Source: Candidatus Zixiibacteriota bacterium (GTDB lineage Bacteria > Zixibacteria > MSB-5A5 > GN15 > JAAZOE01). From it: a stretch of DNA of 64,000 nt. This document shows, piece by piece, positions 21,193-62,173 of the stretch (positions within the stretch are counted from its first letter, which is position 1; every line of letters starts with the position of its first letter). The stretch covers positions 1 to 64,000 of the forward strand of contig JAGLON010000033.1 of assembly GCA_023138975.1 (NCBI GenBank), in the 5' to 3' direction. The notes below the pieces were generated by a model, which was not told where the DNA came from, did not search any database, and worked only from the letters and a program-made list of their open reading frames with translations. Made by a program: the position numbers and the translations under genes.

Positions 21193-23565
21193 ATGAAATC
21201 ATCTCTTTTTAAGCTATTGAAAGTTACTATCATAGTTATGCTGCTAATAACGTTTTGCAGCACTTCCGGGTTCTGTCAGGCATTAATTGCCGATCATACC
21301 TCAAGTGATGAGTTTTCCAACATTCCGGATTCTATCATCACTTTTATTCGCGGTAATTACTATTACTACTACGCCCATACCTCCCACGGAAGCCAAATAA
21401 TGACCGGTTTGGATATGGTATATGCCGAGGATAATTTATATCAGGAGCCGTATTTTTATGAGCGCAGTGATGATTTAGGGCATGTGGGCGATACCTCATG
21501 GGTTCCTTATATGCGGACCTATCTGGCCTCGAATCCGGATTGCAATATGGTGATGTTTTCGTGGTGCGGGGGCTGTTCGGATAATTCCGAGGCAGGTATG
21601 AATATATACCTAAATAAAATGAATGAGCTTGAAAGTGACTATCCATCGCATACTTTTATTTATATGACGGGGCATCTGGATGGGGGTGGAATCACAGGCA
21701 ATCTTTATCTCCGTAATAATCAAATCAGAGATTACTGCAATGCCAACGATAAAATCCTGTTTGATTTCGCTGATATCGAAAGTTATGATCCGGACGGGAC
21801 ATATTATCCTGATGAAAATGATGCCTGTGGCTGGTGTGAAACTTGGTGTGCTTCTCATAGTTGCCCGAGTTGCGCCGGTTGTGCCCATTCCCATTGTTTC
21901 AACTGCTATCGAAAAGGGAAGGCATGGTGGTGGATGATGGCCAAGATATCAGGCTGGCAGGCGACTCTTGATACGATTCCTGATATTGTTTCCTTCTCAC
22001 CGGAGCAGAATGAGATGAATGTTGGGTTATCATCAGATATTTCAGTACAATTTGATATCCCTATGGATGAAACGACCTTGACAAGTTCATCAATTAACCT
22101 CTTTTCCAAATATAAAGGCAAATTACCGGGAACATTCTCATACGATGCGCCTACCAACACGGTGCTATTCAATCCCACTACTGATTTTGTTGTCGGTGAT
22201 GTGATTCAGGTGGTAATAACCGATGCTGTTCTATCTGCGGCGGGAGTGCCGTTAACTAACGGGTTTGGATGGAGTTTTACGTGCGAGGTTTCCGCCGGAA
22301 ATGCTCAATTTGGAGACACTGCATCATTTGCTATACCCACTTACCCGCGTCAAGTGAAGGCAGCGGATTTAAATGGGGACAATAATGTTGATATTGTGGT
22401 AGTAAACAGCGATGGTTTTCATGTGATGCTTGGCACCGGAACCGGAGCTCTACAGCCGTTTGTTACTTACACGACCCCATCATATTCCTATTCAATGACG
22501 TTAGCAGATGTCAACAATGACGGTTATCCTGAAGTAGCGATTGCCGGGGAGTCTTCGGAGTACTATGGGTATACTTCAATATATATAAATAATGGTGACG
22601 GTACGTTTGGTGATCCTATCTCTTATGATGGAGGCGGCGAAGGGGATATCACTTCTGCGGACTTAAATCTGGATGGATATTTAGATTTAATTGTAGTGCA
22701 ATCTTTTCTTTCCAGCAATATATATGTATTTCTCAATAACGGAAACGAGACTTTTACAACGGATACGATCTATACGGCTGAGCTTGGTTCCCAGAGTGTT
22801 GCCGCTGAAGATTTTAATGGAGACGGATATTTCGATATTGTGGTTGGCTGGAGTCAATCGAACACAGTTGAGGTTTTTTTGAGCACTGGCCCGGGGCGCC
22901 TTTCAGAAGGTGTCGAGTATCTTACCAGTTACGCAGTACAGTCACTTTATGCGGCAGACTTGGATAATGATGGTGATGTTGATATTGTAACGGGGGATGA
23001 AACCAGCGAATATATGGGGATTGCATCATATCTTTACAATAATGGTGATGGTACGTTTGGTAATTTAAGTGGAGCCTATGTGGAAGGTGGTGCAGTGGCG
23101 GGTATATACTGTACCGATTTGAATAACAACGGGTTTAATGATATCGCCTGCGTTGCCTGGGGAGAATATTTTAGATATATGCTAAATCAAGGTGATGGAT
23201 CGTTTGGCGCAGTTCAAACCGAAACGATTTTGGACAGAGTGCGTGATATGACCTGTGCCGATATGGACAACGACGGCGATATGGATATCATTTCCATGCA
23301 TGATGGTCCAATGCTTGTCACGGTTACTAAGAATGGAATGGTAATAAACCCTCCATATTGCGGCGATGCCAATAATGATGGCTCGCTTGATGTAGGTGAT
23401 GCTGTGTATCTCATCAATTATGCCTTCAAAGGTGGACCTGCACCGAATCCTGTGTGTCAGGGCGATGCGAATAATGATAGTGATGTCAATGTTGGTGATG
23501 CTATCTTTATTGTCAATTATGCATTTAAAGGAGGTCCATCTCCGGGCACTAACTGCTGTGATTAA
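21193..23565 (+). CDS. Exported SGNH-like / FG-GAP repeat / dockerin protein
   Basis: A secreted multidomain protein of 790 residues. A signal peptide ends near SGFCQA. The first 250 residues form the family module found five times in this window: IADHT..., the motif HTSHGSQI, FSWCGGCS, IYMTGHLDG, FDFADIESYDPDG, a Cys-rich segment with eight cysteines, then HCFNCYRKGKAWWWMMA. An Ig-like Big_5-type domain (about 255-365) and about six FG-GAP/VCBS-type repeats with DxNxDG calcium loops follow. A dockerin-like pair (CGDANNDGSLDVGDAVYLIN) ends it. AGGAGG five bases before the ATG at 21193 fixes the start, which is 11 codons inside the track ORF. Probably cell-surface; enzymatic role unproven. Confidence 0.85.
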   Translation: MKSSLFKLLKVTIIVMLLITFCSTSGFCQALIADHTSSDEFSNIPDSIITFIRGNYYYYYAHTSHGSQIMTGLDMVYAEDNLYQEPYFYERSDDLGHVGDTSWVPYMRTYLASNPDCNMVMFSWCGGCSDNSEAGMNIYLNKMNELESDYPSHTFIYMTGHLDGGGITGNLYLRNNQIRDYCNANDKILFDFADIESYDPDGTYYPDENDACGWCETWCASHSCPSCAGCAHSHCFNCYRKGKAWWWMMAKISGWQATLDTIPDIVSFSPEQNEMNVGLSSDISVQFDIPMDETTLTSSSINLFSKYKGKLPGTFSYDAPTNTVLFNPTTDFVVGDVIQVVITDAVLSAAGVPLTNGFGWSFTCEVSAGNAQFGDTASFAIPTYPRQVKAADLNGDNNVDIVVVNSDGFHVMLGTGTGALQPFVTYTTPSYSYSMTLADVNNDGYPEVAIAGESSEYYGYTSIYINNGDGTFGDPISYDGGGEGDITSADLNLDGYLDLIVVQSFLSSNIYVFLNNGNETFTTDTIYTAELGSQSVAAEDFNGDGYFDIVVGWSQSNTVEVFLSTGPGRLSEGVEYLTSYAVQSLYAADLDNDGDVDIVTGDETSEYMGIASYLYNNGDGTFGNLSGAYVEGGAVAGIYCTDLNNNGFNDIACVAWGEYFRYMLNQGDGSFGAVQTETILDRVRDMTCADMDNDGDMDIISMHDGPMLVTVTKNGMVINPPYCGDANNDGSLDVGDAVYLINYAFKGGPAPNPVCQGDANNDSDVNVGDAIFIVNYAFKGGPSPGTNCCD

Positions 23566-27735: not shown

Positions 27736-29166
27736 ATGAACGCACACAAAAACTCTTTCATTGTTCTATCATCATTGATGTGTTTGTTTTTATTTGCATC
27801 GATTTCAGCTCAACCCGTCGAAATTGATAATCAAATAGTCGTAGTTACCAAGAAAAACTGCAATCCTGAGAATATTTGGGGGACCGGTAAGGCTACTGTT
27901 CGAGATAGCATAAAAGGCTGTAATACTTTTTTGATTGATATCAATTCTGATGAATCCGGGGTAAGAGCCTATCTTGACACGTTGGCAAAGAACCCGAGTG
28001 TTGACTATTTAGAGCCAAATTATCAGGTAGAACTTCCAGAAAATTTCCAGATGAGTATTTCGTTTCCGGACGAAGGATGTCCGCCTTTGGTTAAGGGTAC
28101 CAGCCCTCCGGATTTCTTTGGCTTACCGGCTATATATGATCTTGGAACCGAGATGGCTCACGAGTTAACCACTGGTGAAGGTATTATTGTCGCGATTATT
28201 GATAACGGCATAGACCAGAATCACCCGCTTTTTCAACAATCTATCATGCTTCCCGGTAAAGACTTCATCGATATGGATGACGATCCCTCCGATGAGGGAG
28301 GTGATGTATATGGGCATGGGACCTTTGTAACGGGACTTGTATTACTTAACGCCCCCGATTGTGGAATTGTGACCGTTCGGGCATTTAACGGCAATGGTAT
28401 CGGAAGCTCGTTTTCAATTGCTCGAGCCATCCGTTGGGCCGCCAATCATGATGCAGATGTCATTAATATGAGTTTCGGTATGGAGACTGATAGCAAGCTT
28501 GTAAAAAATGCGATAAAGTTTGCAAATAATAAGGAAGTTGCATTAGTCGCCGCAAGTGGTAACGAAGGTTTGACGACACGTATATTCCCGGCAGCATATA
28601 ATACTGTAATTGCAGTGTCGGCTATTGATTCGCTGGAACATCTTGCCGATTTTTCGAATTATGGTGAATACATAGACGTGTGCGCCCCCGGGGTCAATTT
28701 ATACAGTAGCTTAGCCGGTGAATACAATTGGGGTACCTGGAGCGGTACTTCCTTTGCCGCACCGCTTGTTAGTGCGGCCTGTGCATTGACTCTATCTCTG
28801 AATGAAGAGGTGACACCCAATAGAATCGAACGGCATGTCGGACTGACTGCCCGAAGGGTTTTAAGCTGGGGAGAGATAGTTCCTCCCGATTCACAATATG
28901 GCAATGGGTGCATTGATATTTTTGCTGCAGTTAGCCAAATTAATGAACCTGATATTATTCTGTGCGGTGATGCTGATGGCAATGGTGTTGTGAATATGGG
29001 GGATGTTCAATATATTGTCCGTTATGTATTTAAAAGCGGATCGCAGCCTTCTTCAATGAGCGCCGCCGACGTTAATTGTGATTTCCATGTAAATGAAGCG
29101 GATGCGACATTTTTATTGAATTTCTTGTTAAAAGGAGGTCCGCAGCCCTGTTGCTGGGCCAGATAA
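27736..29166 (+). CDS. Exported S8 subtilase with dockerin-like tail
   Basis: A 476-residue secreted serine protease. A signal peptide (about 1-26, ending FASISAQ) precedes a short propeptide (about 30-100) and a peptidase S8 domain with an intact triad: Asp156 in AIIDNGID, His194 in YGHGTFVTG and Ser339 in SGTSFAAP, plus the oxyanion Asn in AASGNEG. The last 70 residues are a dockerin-like pair (CGDADGNGVVNMGDVQYIVR) ending in PCC. It is the fourth gene of the sigma/anti-sigma-like/CHAT operon, 21 bases after the CHAT stop, and is followed by a strong terminator. It would act outside the cytoplasm, perhaps as an effector or signal-sensing arm of the system. Confidence 0.92.
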   Translation: MNAHKNSFIVLSSLMCLFLFASISAQPVEIDNQIVVVTKKNCNPENIWGTGKATVRDSIKGCNTFLIDINSDESGVRAYLDTLAKNPSVDYLEPNYQVELPENFQMSISFPDEGCPPLVKGTSPPDFFGLPAIYDLGTEMAHELTTGEGIIVAIIDNGIDQNHPLFQQSIMLPGKDFIDMDDDPSDEGGDVYGHGTFVTGLVLLNAPDCGIVTVRAFNGNGIGSSFSIARAIRWAANHDADVINMSFGMETDSKLVKNAIKFANNKEVALVAASGNEGLTTRIFPAAYNTVIAVSAIDSLEHLADFSNYGEYIDVCAPGVNLYSSLAGEYNWGTWSGTSFAAPLVSAACALTLSLNEEVTPNRIERHVGLTARRVLSWGEIVPPDSQYGNGCIDIFAAVSQINEPDIILCGDADGNGVVNMGDVQYIVRYVFKSGSQPSSMSAADVNCDFHVNEADATFLLNFLLKGGPQPCCWAR

Positions 29167-50838: not shown

Positions 50839-52203
50839 ATGAAAGATAGATTATTTAAGATAGCATTGATGCTGCTAATTGGATTTGGTAGTTTTATAAT
50901 CGCGACACCCAATGCCTTTGCCGAGGCTATCATTGCCGATCATAATGCCGTTGACGCCTTTGATAATATCCCGGATAACTGGATTGACTCGGTCAGAAAT
51001 TATCAATTGTTTTATATCCATCAATCGCATGGTTCTCAACTAATTCAAGGATTAAAAATCCTGCACAACGAAGATAATAAGTATTATCCGAACGCGATGG
51101 AGGCATTGTGGTGGATATATCCGACCGGTCAGGAAATCGGTTGGAACGGGGATACGGCTTTTGCATACTATGTACGTCAGTATTTAGATACAAATTCGGT
51201 CAACTGTGATGTTGTATCGGTTTCATGGTGCGGTGGAGCTTACACTAATAGCGAATCTGAAATCAATAAGTTTATGACGGGGTGGCTGAATCTGTCCCAT
51301 GATTATCCGGATGTGAATTTTATCGTACAGACTTCTCGTCTGATGGATGCTCATGGTGAGAGCTTTGAATCAACTGGCCGGAGTATTATGAAGGCCAATC
51401 AATATATGCGTAACTTCGCTATTGCAAACAATATGTATATCCTTGATTATGGCGATATCGAAGGTTTTAATGTAGTAACCGGTCAACTTGATTCAATGGC
51501 AACCGATTCAGGAACAACCTGGTGGAATGATTACTGCAATGCCGGGAACAATTGTCCCGATTGCATAAGTGCTCCGGTATTTCCAAGTTCTCATTGGAAT
51601 CGCAGTATTCAAGGGACAACGGAATCCTGCGCTCACTGCTATAGTCCTTCGTGGGAAGGCATTAACTGTTACCGCAAGGCTAAAGCCTGGTGGTGGCTGA
51701 TGGCTCGAGTTGCCGGTTGGGATGGCGGTACTCAGACTAACCATCCCCCTCAAATCACATCGGCTGGTGACGTTGATGCCTATATGGACTCACTATTTTA
51801 CTATATCTCAACGGCTTATGATCCGGAAGGCCACGAAGTACATTTCAGCTATATCAACTACCCCCATTGGATGAGCGTGAGTAGTCAGAACATTACAGGA
51901 ATGGCCAGAGATAGCGATGTGGATACTTCGTTTTTGGTTATTGCCTCGGATGGAGTTTTAGCTGATACCAACGAGGTGAATGTCACCGTTTGGAGCTTAA
52001 CTCCCTGCGGAGATACTAATCGGGATAAATCGGTATCGTTGGGGGATGCTGTTTTTTTGATAAGTTATATTTTCAGAGGTGGGCCTCCTCCAAAACCGGA
52101 AACAAATGGTGATCCAAATCATGATTTCGAAATCAATGTTGCTGATGTGGTTTATCTCGTGAATTATGTTTTTAAGGGTGGCCCGGAACCAAACTGCCCC
52201 TAA
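50839..52203 (+). CDS. Exported SGNH-like family protein with dockerin tail
   Basis: A 454-residue secreted paralogue. The signal peptide ends near NAFAEA. The module (ADHNAVDAFDNIPDNW, YIHQSHGSQLIQ, VSWCGGAYT, CAHCYSP, INCYRKAKAWWWLMA) is nearly identical, even at the DNA level, to that of the 59258 protein. A cadherin-like domain (about 300-390, NHPPQITSAGDVDAYMDS) and a dockerin-like pair (CGDTNRDKSVSLGDAVFLIS) follow. AGGAG lies four bases before the ATG. It is convergent with NAD synthase across a shared bidirectional terminator. Confidence 0.86.
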   Translation: MKDRLFKIALMLLIGFGSFIIATPNAFAEAIIADHNAVDAFDNIPDNWIDSVRNYQLFYIHQSHGSQLIQGLKILHNEDNKYYPNAMEALWWIYPTGQEIGWNGDTAFAYYVRQYLDTNSVNCDVVSVSWCGGAYTNSESEINKFMTGWLNLSHDYPDVNFIVQTSRLMDAHGESFESTGRSIMKANQYMRNFAIANNMYILDYGDIEGFNVVTGQLDSMATDSGTTWWNDYCNAGNNCPDCISAPVFPSSHWNRSIQGTTESCAHCYSPSWEGINCYRKAKAWWWLMARVAGWDGGTQTNHPPQITSAGDVDAYMDSLFYYISTAYDPEGHEVHFSYINYPHWMSVSSQNITGMARDSDVDTSFLVIASDGVLADTNEVNVTVWSLTPCGDTNRDKSVSLGDAVFLISYIFRGGPPPKPETNGDPNHDFEINVADVVYLVNYVFKGGPEPNCP

Positions 52204-55885: not shown

Positions 55886-56995
55886 ATGGTTTTTTATCAT
55901 ATAAGAGTTTTCTTTCTGGCCGTATTGGTATTTTGCCCGGTATTTGTTTCGGGAGTATCAGGGACCGGAATAAAGGCTGATCACGCTGCTGTCGATTTGT
56001 TTTCCACGATTCCAGCCAGTTGGGTGTCGGCGGTCAAAGACAGTCTGGTTATTTATAACCTGCATCAATCTCATGGATCGCATAATATAATGGGTATGAA
56101 AATGCTCTATGAAGATGATAATATGTATTATCCTCCGGAAATGTGGGGCCAGTGGTGGACCTATCCCGGGAGTTGTCAGGATATTGGCTGGAATGGCAGT
56201 ACCTGCTTTGCTAGCTGGACTCGAACATATCTCGATACAAACTCGGTTGGTTGTAATGTTGTGACGGTCTCGTTTTCTCATGCCGCCAACTCTTGTGATA
56301 GCATAGAAATTAATAATTTTGTAAATGGTTGGGTTTCACTGGCAACCGACTATCCCAATGTCGATTTTATTATGCAGTCGGCCCGTTTGCGCCACCAGGC
56401 CGATGATTATAATACTACCGGTCTAATTATTATTCGAGCCAATCAATATATGAGAGATATTTTTGAGACACTATCTATCACAAATCTTCATCTCTATGAT
56501 GTAGGGGATATTAGTTGGTGGGATCGAGGTAATAACCGAATCGATTCACTTTCGACCGATTCCGGTGATACTTGGATGCCAGCTTATGTTCAGGCCGGAA
56601 ACTCGCCAATCGGTTGCGCCCCCCAGGACAATAATTTCGGTGGCAGTTGGCATTACTCAATTATGGGCAATACAGATGTCTGCGCTCATGCCAATGGTGG
56701 TTCTGCATATGCGTGCCTCATGTGTGAGATTATGGGCAAAGCCTGGTGGTATATGATGTCCCGGATTGCCGGTTGGGATCCTAATCCTCCGGTTTGCGGA
56801 GACTCCGATCTTGATGGTGTTGTTAACGTTGATGATGGTCTGTTTTTAATCAATTATATATTCAGAGCCGGAGCAACTCCGATAAATATGAATCTCAGTG
56901 ATGTGAATAATGATTCCCGCGTTAATATCGGGGACGTTGTATATCTCGTCAGATTTGTATTCTCCTCTGGTCCGTCTTTAAACTGCCCGGAATAA
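55886..56995 (+). CDS. Exported SGNH-like family protein with dockerin tail
   Basis: A 369-residue secreted paralogue. The signal peptide ends near FVSGVSG. The module is more diverged (IKADHAAVDLFSTIPASW, NLHQSHGSHNIMGMKM, CAHANGGS, KAWWYMMSRIAGWDP): FSHAAN stands where sisters have the SWCGG segment, and the Cys pattern is thinner. A dockerin-like pair follows (CGDSDLDGVVNVDDGLFLIN ... LNCPE). GGAG lies six bases before the ATG at 55886. It is the most divergent of the five, possibly with altered specificity. A terminator follows. Confidence 0.84.
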   Translation: MVFYHIRVFFLAVLVFCPVFVSGVSGTGIKADHAAVDLFSTIPASWVSAVKDSLVIYNLHQSHGSHNIMGMKMLYEDDNMYYPPEMWGQWWTYPGSCQDIGWNGSTCFASWTRTYLDTNSVGCNVVTVSFSHAANSCDSIEINNFVNGWVSLATDYPNVDFIMQSARLRHQADDYNTTGLIIIRANQYMRDIFETLSITNLHLYDVGDISWWDRGNNRIDSLSTDSGDTWMPAYVQAGNSPIGCAPQDNNFGGSWHYSIMGNTDVCAHANGGSAYACLMCEIMGKAWWYMMSRIAGWDPNPPVCGDSDLDGVVNVDDGLFLINYIFRAGATPINMNLSDVNNDSRVNIGDVVYLVRFVFSSGPSLNCPE

Positions 56996-59115: not shown

Positions 59116-59257
59116 CAAAGTTTATTAGTTCATCTGCTGGGATTTGGCTGCATTATTGAACAAAATTCGGAGTAAATCTGCAAAAAATATAGAGGATTTG
59201 CACAGAGATGATTCGTAATATAGTTAGAGACAGACGATGCGGATAACCGGAGGTATA

Positions 59258-61066
59258 ATGTTCAAATCTGTTTGGTGTCGGATATTTCTATTTGTTCTGA
59301 TGCTGCTAATCATACCATCAATGGTTTCGGCCCAAGCTATTATTGCCGATCATAATGCCGTTGACGCCTTTGATAATATCCCGGATAACTGGATTGACTC
59401 GGTCAGAAATTATCAATTGTTTTATATCCATCAATCGCATGGCTCTCAACTAATTCAGGGATTAAAAATCCTGTACAACGAAGATACCAAGTACTACCCG
59501 AACGCGATGGAGGCATTGTGGTGGATATATCCGACCGGTCAGGAAGTCGGGTGGAACGGCGATACGGCTTTTGCATACTATGTACGTCAGTATTTAGATA
59601 CAAATTCAGTAAATTGTGATGTGGTATCGGTCTCTTGGTGCGGTGGAGCCTATTCCTGCAGCGAATCTGAAATCAATAAGTTTATGACGGGGTGGCTGAA
59701 TCTGTCCCATGATTACCCGGATGTGAATTTTATAGTACAGACTTCTCGCCTGATGGATGCCCACGGTGAGAGCTTTGAATCAACCGGCCGGAGTATTATG
59801 AAGGCCAATCAATATATACGTAACTTCGCTATCGCCAACGATATGTATGTTCTTGATTATGGCGATATCGAAGGTTTTAATGTAGTAACTGGTCAGCTTG
59901 ACTCAATGGCAACTGATTCAGGAACAACCTGGTGGAATGATTACTGCAATGCTGGGAACAATTGTCCCGATTGTATAAGCTCTCCGGTCTTTCCAAGTTC
60001 TCATTGGAATAGCAGTATTATGGGGACAACGGAATCCTGCGCTCACTGCTATAGTCCTTTATGGGACGGCGTTAACTGTTATCGTAAAGCTAAAGCCTGG
60101 TGGTGGATGATGGCGCAAATCGCAGGCTGGGATGGCGGTTCCGGAGGTGGAGATACTCTGGCACCGGTCATAAGCAATATAAACGCAAGTAATATTTCAG
60201 AAAATTCGGCGACTATAACCTGGACGACCGATGAGCCGGCGACATCTCAGGTGGAGTATGGATTTGATGCTAATTATGGTTGGTTCTCCTCTATAAATAC
60301 GAACTTAACTACCGGTCATAGTGTGACCCTAACCGGGTTGAGCTCTGATACACCTTATCATTGTCGCCCGAAAAGTCGTGACGGATCGTCGAATGAGGCC
60401 GTCGGGAGTAATTCTTCCTTTAGAACAGATGCACCTCCACCTCCACCGGATACGGTCAATATTGGGAGTCTGGTCATTCCTTCCGGTACTCAAACGATAG
60501 CGGTCCCGGTAAATTTGCAAAATTTCCAGAAATTGGCGGCTATAGATTTTCCTGTAAAGTGGAGTTCTCCTGATTTGACTTGTGATTCGGTTTCGTTTAC
60601 CGGTTCACGGCTATCATATATTAGCACCAAGCTCTCCGATATCGATAACGATAATCGAAGAATGCACGCTGGTGTTGTGGTAGTGATGGAATCATATATC
60701 CCTGTCGATTCCGGCCTTGTTTTTACAGTTTACTTTTCGGTGAATCCTTCAGCTGCAGCCCAGACTATAGTCGTTGATAGTACGTTGTATCCGCCTTCGT
60801 TTTCATATACAACGACCGATACTACGGGAACGGGACATCCCGCCAAGTGTAAGTCCGGTACAGTTGAGATTTTTATTGTCCCCGATACGATTCCGCCATC
60901 ACAAATTGATGATTTGGGGACGCTTCCAGGAACGATTCTTGGATATCCCGGATTGCGCGATTTCCGGCATTTGGATGCTTTGTTGGCAGGGCAAACTGTT
61001 GCTGTCGAATACCGGCAAAGGTTGAGAATAAAGTTGTTATCGAGATTAAAATTATTGAATATTTAG
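59258..61066 (+). CDS. Exported SGNH-like protein with FnIII and cohesin-like domains
   Basis: A 602-residue secreted paralogue. The signal peptide ends SMVSAQA. Residues about 25-290 are nearly identical to the 50839 protein module (YIHQSHGSQLIQ, VSWCGGAYS, NCYRKAKAWWWMMA). They are followed by an FnIII-like domain (about 300-385) and a beta-rich domain (about 395-545: VNIGSLVIPSGTQTIAVPVN) that resembles cohesins. The last 55 residues start like another FnIII (DTIPPSQIDDL) and then lose all similarity and all hydrophobic pattern, suggesting 3' deletion or decay; no dockerin or sorting domain remains. GGAGG lies four bases before the ATG at 59258. Confidence 0.82.
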   Translation: MFKSVWCRIFLFVLMLLIIPSMVSAQAIIADHNAVDAFDNIPDNWIDSVRNYQLFYIHQSHGSQLIQGLKILYNEDTKYYPNAMEALWWIYPTGQEVGWNGDTAFAYYVRQYLDTNSVNCDVVSVSWCGGAYSCSESEINKFMTGWLNLSHDYPDVNFIVQTSRLMDAHGESFESTGRSIMKANQYIRNFAIANDMYVLDYGDIEGFNVVTGQLDSMATDSGTTWWNDYCNAGNNCPDCISSPVFPSSHWNSSIMGTTESCAHCYSPLWDGVNCYRKAKAWWWMMAQIAGWDGGSGGGDTLAPVISNINASNISENSATITWTTDEPATSQVEYGFDANYGWFSSINTNLTTGHSVTLTGLSSDTPYHCRPKSRDGSSNEAVGSNSSFRTDAPPPPPDTVNIGSLVIPSGTQTIAVPVNLQNFQKLAAIDFPVKWSSPDLTCDSVSFTGSRLSYISTKLSDIDNDNRRMHAGVVVVMESYIPVDSGLVFTVYFSVNPSAAAQTIVVDSTLYPPSFSYTTTDTTGTGHPAKCKSGTVEIFIVPDTIPPSQIDDLGTLPGTILGYPGLRDFRHLDALLAGQTVAVEYRQRLRIKLLSRLKLLNI

Positions 61067-61229
61067 GAGTGACAAAGATCGCCTGAAAAGATTGAAAACC
61101 GGTTTAGCCAGAGAGCTATTGACTAATTAGTGACTTGGCAAGGTGTTAAAACAGAATGAATTAGCGTAATATACAGAAACGATTGAAAACCAGCATAGCT
61201 GGGTGTAACAACTTAATCGAACTAATAAA

Positions 61230-61259
61230 AAACGGCCGATAGATGCATCTCGGCCGTTT
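61230..61259 (-). terminator. Terminator, mainly for the minus-strand gene context
   Basis: AAACGGCCGA and TCGGCCGTTT form a 10-bp stem. The minus-strand T-run (TTTTTTATT) is the stronger, matching the end of the 61289 gene; the plus-strand side may also serve the 59258 gene. Confidence 0.75.
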
Positions 61260-61288
61260 ACTATTTTAACCATTCAGATTAAACAGTG

Positions 61289-62173
61289 CTAGATAATTTC
61301 AGATTTGTTTTGCCACTCTTCTATTATCGGTTTGAAGAATTTAAGGAAATCTTCGGCGATTTCCTTTTTGGCGATATCATTCGGGTGAGAATCTCGTTCA
61401 TTTGATTTCCGGTATTTTGCTTTCAGGGTATTATCTTCTCCTGCCAGGAAGTTAAACAGATCATAAATTACCAGATTACTAAAACCGGTTTCTTCTTTAT
61501 AGCGGGGAAGATATTCCTTCATCAGCCAGGTATTGAAATCTCTTGCCCGTTGCGCATTTTCCGGAGTTGTGACTGCGGGTACGTTTGGCGGAGCGGTCAT
61601 GTAGATGAATAACTTATCCGGATACTTGCCTAACTCTGCTTTAAGACCCTCAAAGGTTGCTTTGTAGTTGGCAATACTGCGGTCATGGCTGGCAGCATTG
61701 CCTTCACCGGAGCCCTCCGATGTAATAATACTGTTTGGATAGCAGGATTTGAACATGATGATATCGTTTGTTTTGCCATCTTCATAGTATTTATTAGGGT
61801 GAGCCTTGAAATTAAGGATATTGTCCATATCGGTTTTGAATTTGGGCAGCCAATCGCTAATATCGGTTTTTTGACCGATTTCATCTCCGTAAGTACAGCT
61901 GCGGATTACAATGCCCATATTAAGCAGGTTGTCGCGCAACTCTCCACGATACATGAATCCATTTCCTACCGAGTGGTGCAGGAAGACCATTCTGGTTGAG
62001 TATATACCGTCGAGATGATCTAAGAGTCCTTCAGCGATGATATATGAGTTTTCCACACTCATTTGCGCCATTGCGGCATGTCTTTGTGCCTTTATCATTT
62101 TGTACCCGATGTACAATCCTATGACAATTCCTACGGCAATTAAGGCCAGAAGAAAAATAGTCATTTTGTTCAT
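61289..62173 (-). CDS. Membrane-anchored SGNH-hydrolase-like protein (HHSVG type)
   Basis: A 294-residue protein with one N-terminal membrane helix (about 4-26) and an exported SGNH-like domain. In place of GDSL it has VFLHHSVGNGF; later blocks are IMFKSCYPNS, KLFIYMTAPPNVPAV, VIYDLFNFLAG and a C-terminal RDSHPNDIAKKEIAEDF, where SGNH enzymes carry the catalytic Asp/His. The block order and spacing parallel the five secreted paralogues (HxSHG, SWCGG, IYMTGHL, FDFADIE, SHCFNCYRKGKAWWW), making it a plausible simpler relative. Likely an esterase or acyl-processing enzyme; substrate unknown. It is convergent with the 59258 gene. Confidence 0.75.
   Translation of the reverse strand: MNKMTIFLLALIAVGIVIGLYIGYKMIKAQRHAAMAQMSVENSYIIAEGLLDHLDGIYSTRMVFLHHSVGNGFMYRGELRDNLLNMGIVIRSCTYGDEIGQKTDISDWLPKFKTDMDNILNFKAHPNKYYEDGKTNDIIMFKSCYPNSIITSEGSGEGNAASHDRSIANYKATFEGLKAELGKYPDKLFIYMTAPPNVPAVTTPENAQRARDFNTWLMKEYLPRYKEETGFSNLVIYDLFNFLAGEDNTLKAKYRKSNERDSHPNDIAKKEIAEDFLKFFKPIIEEWQNKSEII

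Follow-up and report, generated by a model that had tools for sequence, protein, structure and literature searches.

The window, by which we mean the whole 64-kb stretch of DNA analysed here, comes from a Zixibacteria MAG and contains one cohesin-bearing gene together with genes whose products end in a dockerin or in a T9SS-type sorting tail (Table 1). The preliminary description had placed dockerin-like pairs at the ends of the proteins starting at 21193, 27736, 50839 and 55886. This was confirmed, as Dockerin_1 (PF00404) scored above the Pfam cut-off of 22.9 bits in all four proteins and two loops of the type D-x-[ND]-x-[DN] were visible in each. The predicted model of the protein at 55886 has two helices in its dockerin region, but with pLDDT of only 47-60, and its fold search gave a single, weak hit on a dockerin chain (3ul4_B).

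Table 1 Features of the window. Positions are those of the 64-kb stretch; positions in brackets denote the dockerin.
Start	End	Strand	Feature	Basis
21193	23565	+	SGNH-like + Big_5 + FG-GAP + C-terminal dockerin (23362-23520)	Pfam
27736	29166	+	Subtilase (S8) + C-terminal dockerin (28966-29130)	Pfam
29570	33223	+	Subtilase + PKD repeats, T9SS-type sorting tail at end	Pfam
49688	50788	+	SGNH-like paralogue, T9SS-type sorting tail in place of dockerin	
50839	52203	+	SGNH-like + Ig-like segment + C-terminal dockerin (52009-52170)	Pfam
55886	56995	+	SGNH-like + C-terminal dockerin (56798-56953)	Pfam
57288	59030	+	FN3-repeat protein, T9SS-type sorting tail at end	
59258	61066	+	Cohesin-bearing protein, secreted: hydrophobic N-terminal segment, SGNH-like, FN3-like, cohesin, tail	ORF + Pfam
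59330	60139	+	SGNH-like domain region of cohesin protein	DNA identity to 50920-51729
60170	60418	+	FN3 / purple acid phosphatase N-terminal-like domain	PF16656 E=3.2e-6, PF00041 E=1.6e-4
60434	60871	+	Cohesin domain	Family profile, predicted fold
60890	61066	+	Tail of cohesin protein, starting past PPSQIDDL	Module search, six frames

The SGNH-like domain had no Pfam match. Several of the best matches in a fold search were SGNH acylhydrolases, but at E of at least 0.013 on a model of pLDDT 65, and the label "SGNH-like" is therefore weakly supported. Paralogues of this domain cluster between 49688 and 61066 with C-terminal modules that differ from copy to copy (T9SS tail, dockerin or cohesin), an arrangement that may reflect a recent exchange of modules on a unit that had been duplicated. 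Homologues in four other genomes (G011, G017, G019 and G034) each carry a single in-frame stop, TGA or TAA.

In order to judge whether the closeness of cohesin and dockerins in the window is informative, we compared it with the genome average. With about 101 terminal dockerins over 4.15 Mb, roughly 1.6 are expected per 64 kb, and the Poisson probability of at least the four that were seen is about 0.07. Of these four, three moreover belong to copies of a single SGNH-like gene. Their closeness to the cohesin is for these reasons unremarkable, while the modules themselves are real.

Identity of the cohesin domain and state of its gene

The open reading frame of the cohesin protein spans 59237-61066 with an in-frame ATG at 59258, which gives 609 residues; numbered from this ATG, the cohesin occupies residues 393-538. 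As a single sequence, the domain scores below threshold in Pfam (PF00963, E=0.013; 16.2 bits, cut-off 24.1), although several sister domains of the same genome do pass this cut-off, and a PDB search with the single sequence returned nothing useful. We then built a family profile from homologous domains of the same genome and of relatives (52 aligned) and searched the PDB with it. Useful matches came only from this profile, with cohesins occupying the top of the list and 4uyp as the best match (E=4.1e-10). An AlphaFold2 model of the window domain, computed from its alignment with relatives titled Candidatus Zixiibacteriota or FCB group bacterium, reached a pLDDT of 92.5, and all of the 50 PDB matches listed in the fold comparison were cohesins (TM 0.80 to 4uyp). 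Because profile and fold both match cohesins, they outweigh the sub-threshold Pfam score, and by homology and predicted fold the domain is a divergent cohesin. The preliminary description had read a cohesin-like domain at about residues 395-545, and the family profile and the predicted fold confirm this reading. Relatives of the window cohesin were not found in viral contigs.

The remainder of the protein is less regular. The SGNH-like region has 92% DNA identity with that of the dockerin-bearing neighbour at 50839, which argues that this part is a recent duplicate of the neighbour, with a different C-terminal half. Both Pfam matches to the FN3-like domain fall slightly short of the cut-off. 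Past the cohesin, the residues PPSQIDDL resemble the start of another FN3 and are followed by a stretch that has no match in any frame. The tail-profile search gave no T9SS tail in this protein. A T9SS tail or dockerin displaced by a frameshift 3' of the cohesin was ruled out, since none of the six frames of 60880-61400 matched such a tail, a dockerin or a cohesin. A second copy of the region downstream of the cohesin was not found elsewhere in the genome, and no SGNH-cohesin fusion occurred in relatives among the matches listed. The tail is thus a possible truncation or the end of a chimera, and the protein may either function with its single socket or be a decaying chimera.

That the gene is a non-functional recombination product, made of the SGNH-like duplicate and a cohesin fragment, or else a chimera of the assembly, we consider rather unlikely, though it deserves to be taken seriously. 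The near-identity to the neighbour that gives way to divergence, the lack of a recognisable C-terminal module in any frame and the absence of the same fusion from the relatives listed would all be expected of such a product; a frame that stays open over 609 codons and an intact cohesin with a confidently predicted fold would not. This reading concerns one gene and is compatible with the genome-wide explanation given below, since the system as a whole would still be real. Unless its abnormal C-terminus marks a decaying chimera, the window protein would connect its SGNH-like domain, a recent duplicate, with a dockerin client.

Cohesins and dockerins across the genome and the phylum

Profile searches at E<=0.01 gave 116 Dockerin_1 matches in the genome, about 101 of the dockerins being C-terminal, and 31 matches to the cohesin family profile. 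Profiles for cohesin, dockerin and T9SS tail were then run on 814 ORFs, in stretches that cover nearly all matches. A T9SS-type tail ends 14 of the 31 complete cohesin ORFs, compared to only one of 93 dockerin ORFs without cohesin (Fisher p=3e-9), and in that one ORF the dockerin is internal. A further 13 of the 31 cohesin ORFs carry dockerins and no T9SS tail. In Pfam, the tails of cohesin proteins appear as Por_Secre_tail/FlgD_ig matches. An ORF of 1294 aa on contig C34, outside the window, combines four cohesins, BACON-like repeats and a T9SS tail, and similar four-cohesin proteins are present in members of the same family. From their domain content, these multi-cohesin proteins are natural scaffoldin candidates.

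Other architectures were also seen in this genome. At L109, L137, L142, L083 and L144, a cohesin-like domain directly precedes a terminal dockerin, forming compact dyads that resemble adaptor modules. Large cohesin proteins at L002, L006, L008, L009 and L010 have a degenerate dockerin-like pair in their interior (type GDxNMDG...VADAVMFTNYFI), which usually precedes a T9SS tail and is unlike the dockerins of client proteins. At least five tandem dockerin-like domains lie in an ORF of 568 aa (L087:1172-2875, G000:C18), a "poly-plug" rather than a poly-socket, and three in an ORF of 377 aa (L118:584-1714).

The terminal dockerin repeats follow a consensus of roughly DANGDGxVNVGDAVYIINYAFKGGPAP. 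The calcium ligands (positions 1, 3, 5, 9 and 12) are conserved, and so are positions 11 (G), 17 (I), 18 (N) and 21 (F). Positions 4, 6 and 7 vary freely, and the terminal dockerins are therefore not mere recent copies of each other. A shared signature at positions 10, 11, 17, 18 and 22, which we take to be the cohesin-contacting recognition positions of cellulosomal dockerins, is present in 135 of 182 terminal repeats versus 4 of 34 internal ones, and in 49 of 83 proteins a stricter version of it fits both repeats. These patterns point to partners that the dockerins have in common, and perhaps to dual binding. The recognition positions of the dockerins in this genome read V/I-G...I-N; those of C. 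thermocellum dockerins read S-T...K-R.

Among 92 dockerin-only proteins, Pfam found peptidases of families S8, M14, C25, M28, M6, C10, M4, M1 and C1, a peptidyl-arginine deiminase-like protein and many beta-propellers. Glycoside hydrolases, including cellulases, were not found in these 92 proteins at E<=1e-14, and at E<=1e-4 none occurred among the 25 families listed for each half of the set. Since the majority of dockerin proteins have no match to a catalytic family, "protease array" would be a partial description of the clients.

In the phylum set (98 genomes, at least 85% complete), cohesins were found in 93 genomes and dockerins in 93, and the same five genomes (G064 and G097-G100) lack both. 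The odds of such joint absence are about 1 in 68 million if genomes are treated as independent; the five belong to two families, and the independent events number perhaps one or two. In the nearer set, drawn from the same order, both modules were present in 60 of 60 genomes, and cohesin and dockerin counts correlate weakly (rho=0.26, with counts that are lower bounds and genomes treated as independent). Loss of the T9SS was considered as a cause of the joint absence and rejected, because the T9SS protein SprA is present in all five double-negative genomes. SprA_N was found in 94 of the 98 genomes. The MAG that contains the window (93.6% complete) gave no match, probably because it is incomplete.

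These data also bear on two other explanations. In the first, the terminal dockerin serves in sorting or retention in place of a T9SS tail, as a signal that the export or anchoring machinery reads with no need of a cohesin. It would account for dockerins standing where T9SS tails stand in alternative SGNH-like paralogues, and for the large excess of dockerins over cohesins. However, the genomes without dockerins also lack cohesins yet keep SprA, and the conservation of the repeat beyond its calcium ligands is what a binding face would be expected to show. We consider this explanation improbable. In the second, which we rate slightly lower still, the cohesin-like domains no longer bind dockerins and act as beta-sandwich spacers of a generic kind or in adhesion. 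Their location within large BACON, FN3 and Ig-like surface proteins and their often sub-threshold single-domain Pfam scores fit such a role, but the profile and fold matches are specifically to cohesins and the presence of the domains tracks that of dockerins over the phylum.

Proposed surface assembly and comparison with known systems

With a probability of about 0.72, we interpret these modules as a non-cellulosomal cohesin-dockerin system in which dockerin proteins dock onto T9SS-secreted cohesin proteins and form a degradative array on the cell surface. About 100 secreted proteins, many of them peptidases, terminate in a dockerin and would be the clients; the sockets would be the cohesin proteins, which are fewer and of which several combine 2-4 cohesins with a T9SS C-terminal tail. 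The type IX system would export and anchor the tailed cohesin proteins, the dockerin proteins would plug into them in a calcium-dependent manner, and the docked proteins would build up the array, with proteins that carry both a cohesin and a terminal dockerin acting as adaptors.

A more specific version, which we hold tentatively and at somewhat less than even odds, is a two-tier system shared across the phylum. The T9SS tail would export and anchor the cohesin scaffolds, and a uniform dockerin code would let the roughly 100 secreted proteins, many of them peptidases, share these anchors. The dockerin would then functionally replace the T9SS tail, and enzymes could move between tiers by exchanging the module at their C-terminus, as may have happened among the SGNH-like paralogues of the window.

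The preliminary description had inferred a non-cellulosomal surface assembly joining proteases and SGNH-like proteins. Genome-wide, with peptidases among the clients, this holds as the best reading, apart from the weakly supported SGNH-like naming. A local assembly of these few genes does not hold, because the consensus shared by the dockerins points to the same partners for about 100 proteins, and because better scaffoldin candidates lie elsewhere, on contig C34.

If the proposed docking system is correct, an uncultured phylum of sediments and aquifers breaks down biopolymers, probably protein, by means of an array of surface-docked enzymes that exceeds in size those proposed in relatives. 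The cohesin-dockerin principle would extend phylum-wide to T9SS bacteria, and the system could be a source of new plug-and-socket pairs for protein engineering. The pattern of presence and absence across the phylum makes the dependency between dockerin and cohesin directly testable.

Comparable systems have been proposed in other groups. In Ca. Stygibacter (Cloacimonadota, PMC8542988), a putative cellulosome-like complex has been described with biopolymers other than cellulose as proposed substrates. It shares with our case a scaffoldin-like protein in which tandem cohesins are combined with a C-terminal surface-attachment tail, and dockerins on S8 and C25 peptidases. Its clients, however, include GH18 and GH57, whereas we found no glycoside hydrolase at E<=1e-14, and our case differs in its phylum, in the roughly 100 terminal dockerins of a single genome and in a pattern that spans the phylum. 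The proposed "planctosome" of freshwater Planctomycetes (Nemodlikiaceae, PMC6461901) likewise has peptidase clients including M14, a layout of anchor and adaptor, and no role in cellulose degradation; that model has a lamin-tail anchor, whereas here we see tails of the T9SS type, several proteins with multiple cohesins and a far larger number of dockerin proteins. With the clostridial cellulosome (e.g. Pseudobacteroides cellulosolvens, PMC5590126), the Zixibacteria modules have in common the cohesin fold, paired-loop dockerins, multi-cohesin proteins and two-module adaptors, and they differ in their T9SS-type surface tails and in the absence of cellulases among the matches listed. Scaffoldin-like proteins that combine a dockerin with up to 5 cohesins are also known, outside any cellulosome, from ANME archaea (PMC9012536), but there the surface is archaeal and dockerins are commonly borne by transporter substrate-binding and S-layer proteins. 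Limousia (PMC12997984) is a mucin-degrading example of cohesin and dockerin use that has expression support. Our literature search, which covered few subscription journals, gave no description of a cohesin-dockerin system in Zixibacteria. Set against these examples, the Zixibacteria system is a new, unusually large and phylum-wide case of the kind of non-cellulosomal cohesin-dockerin assembly already proposed elsewhere.
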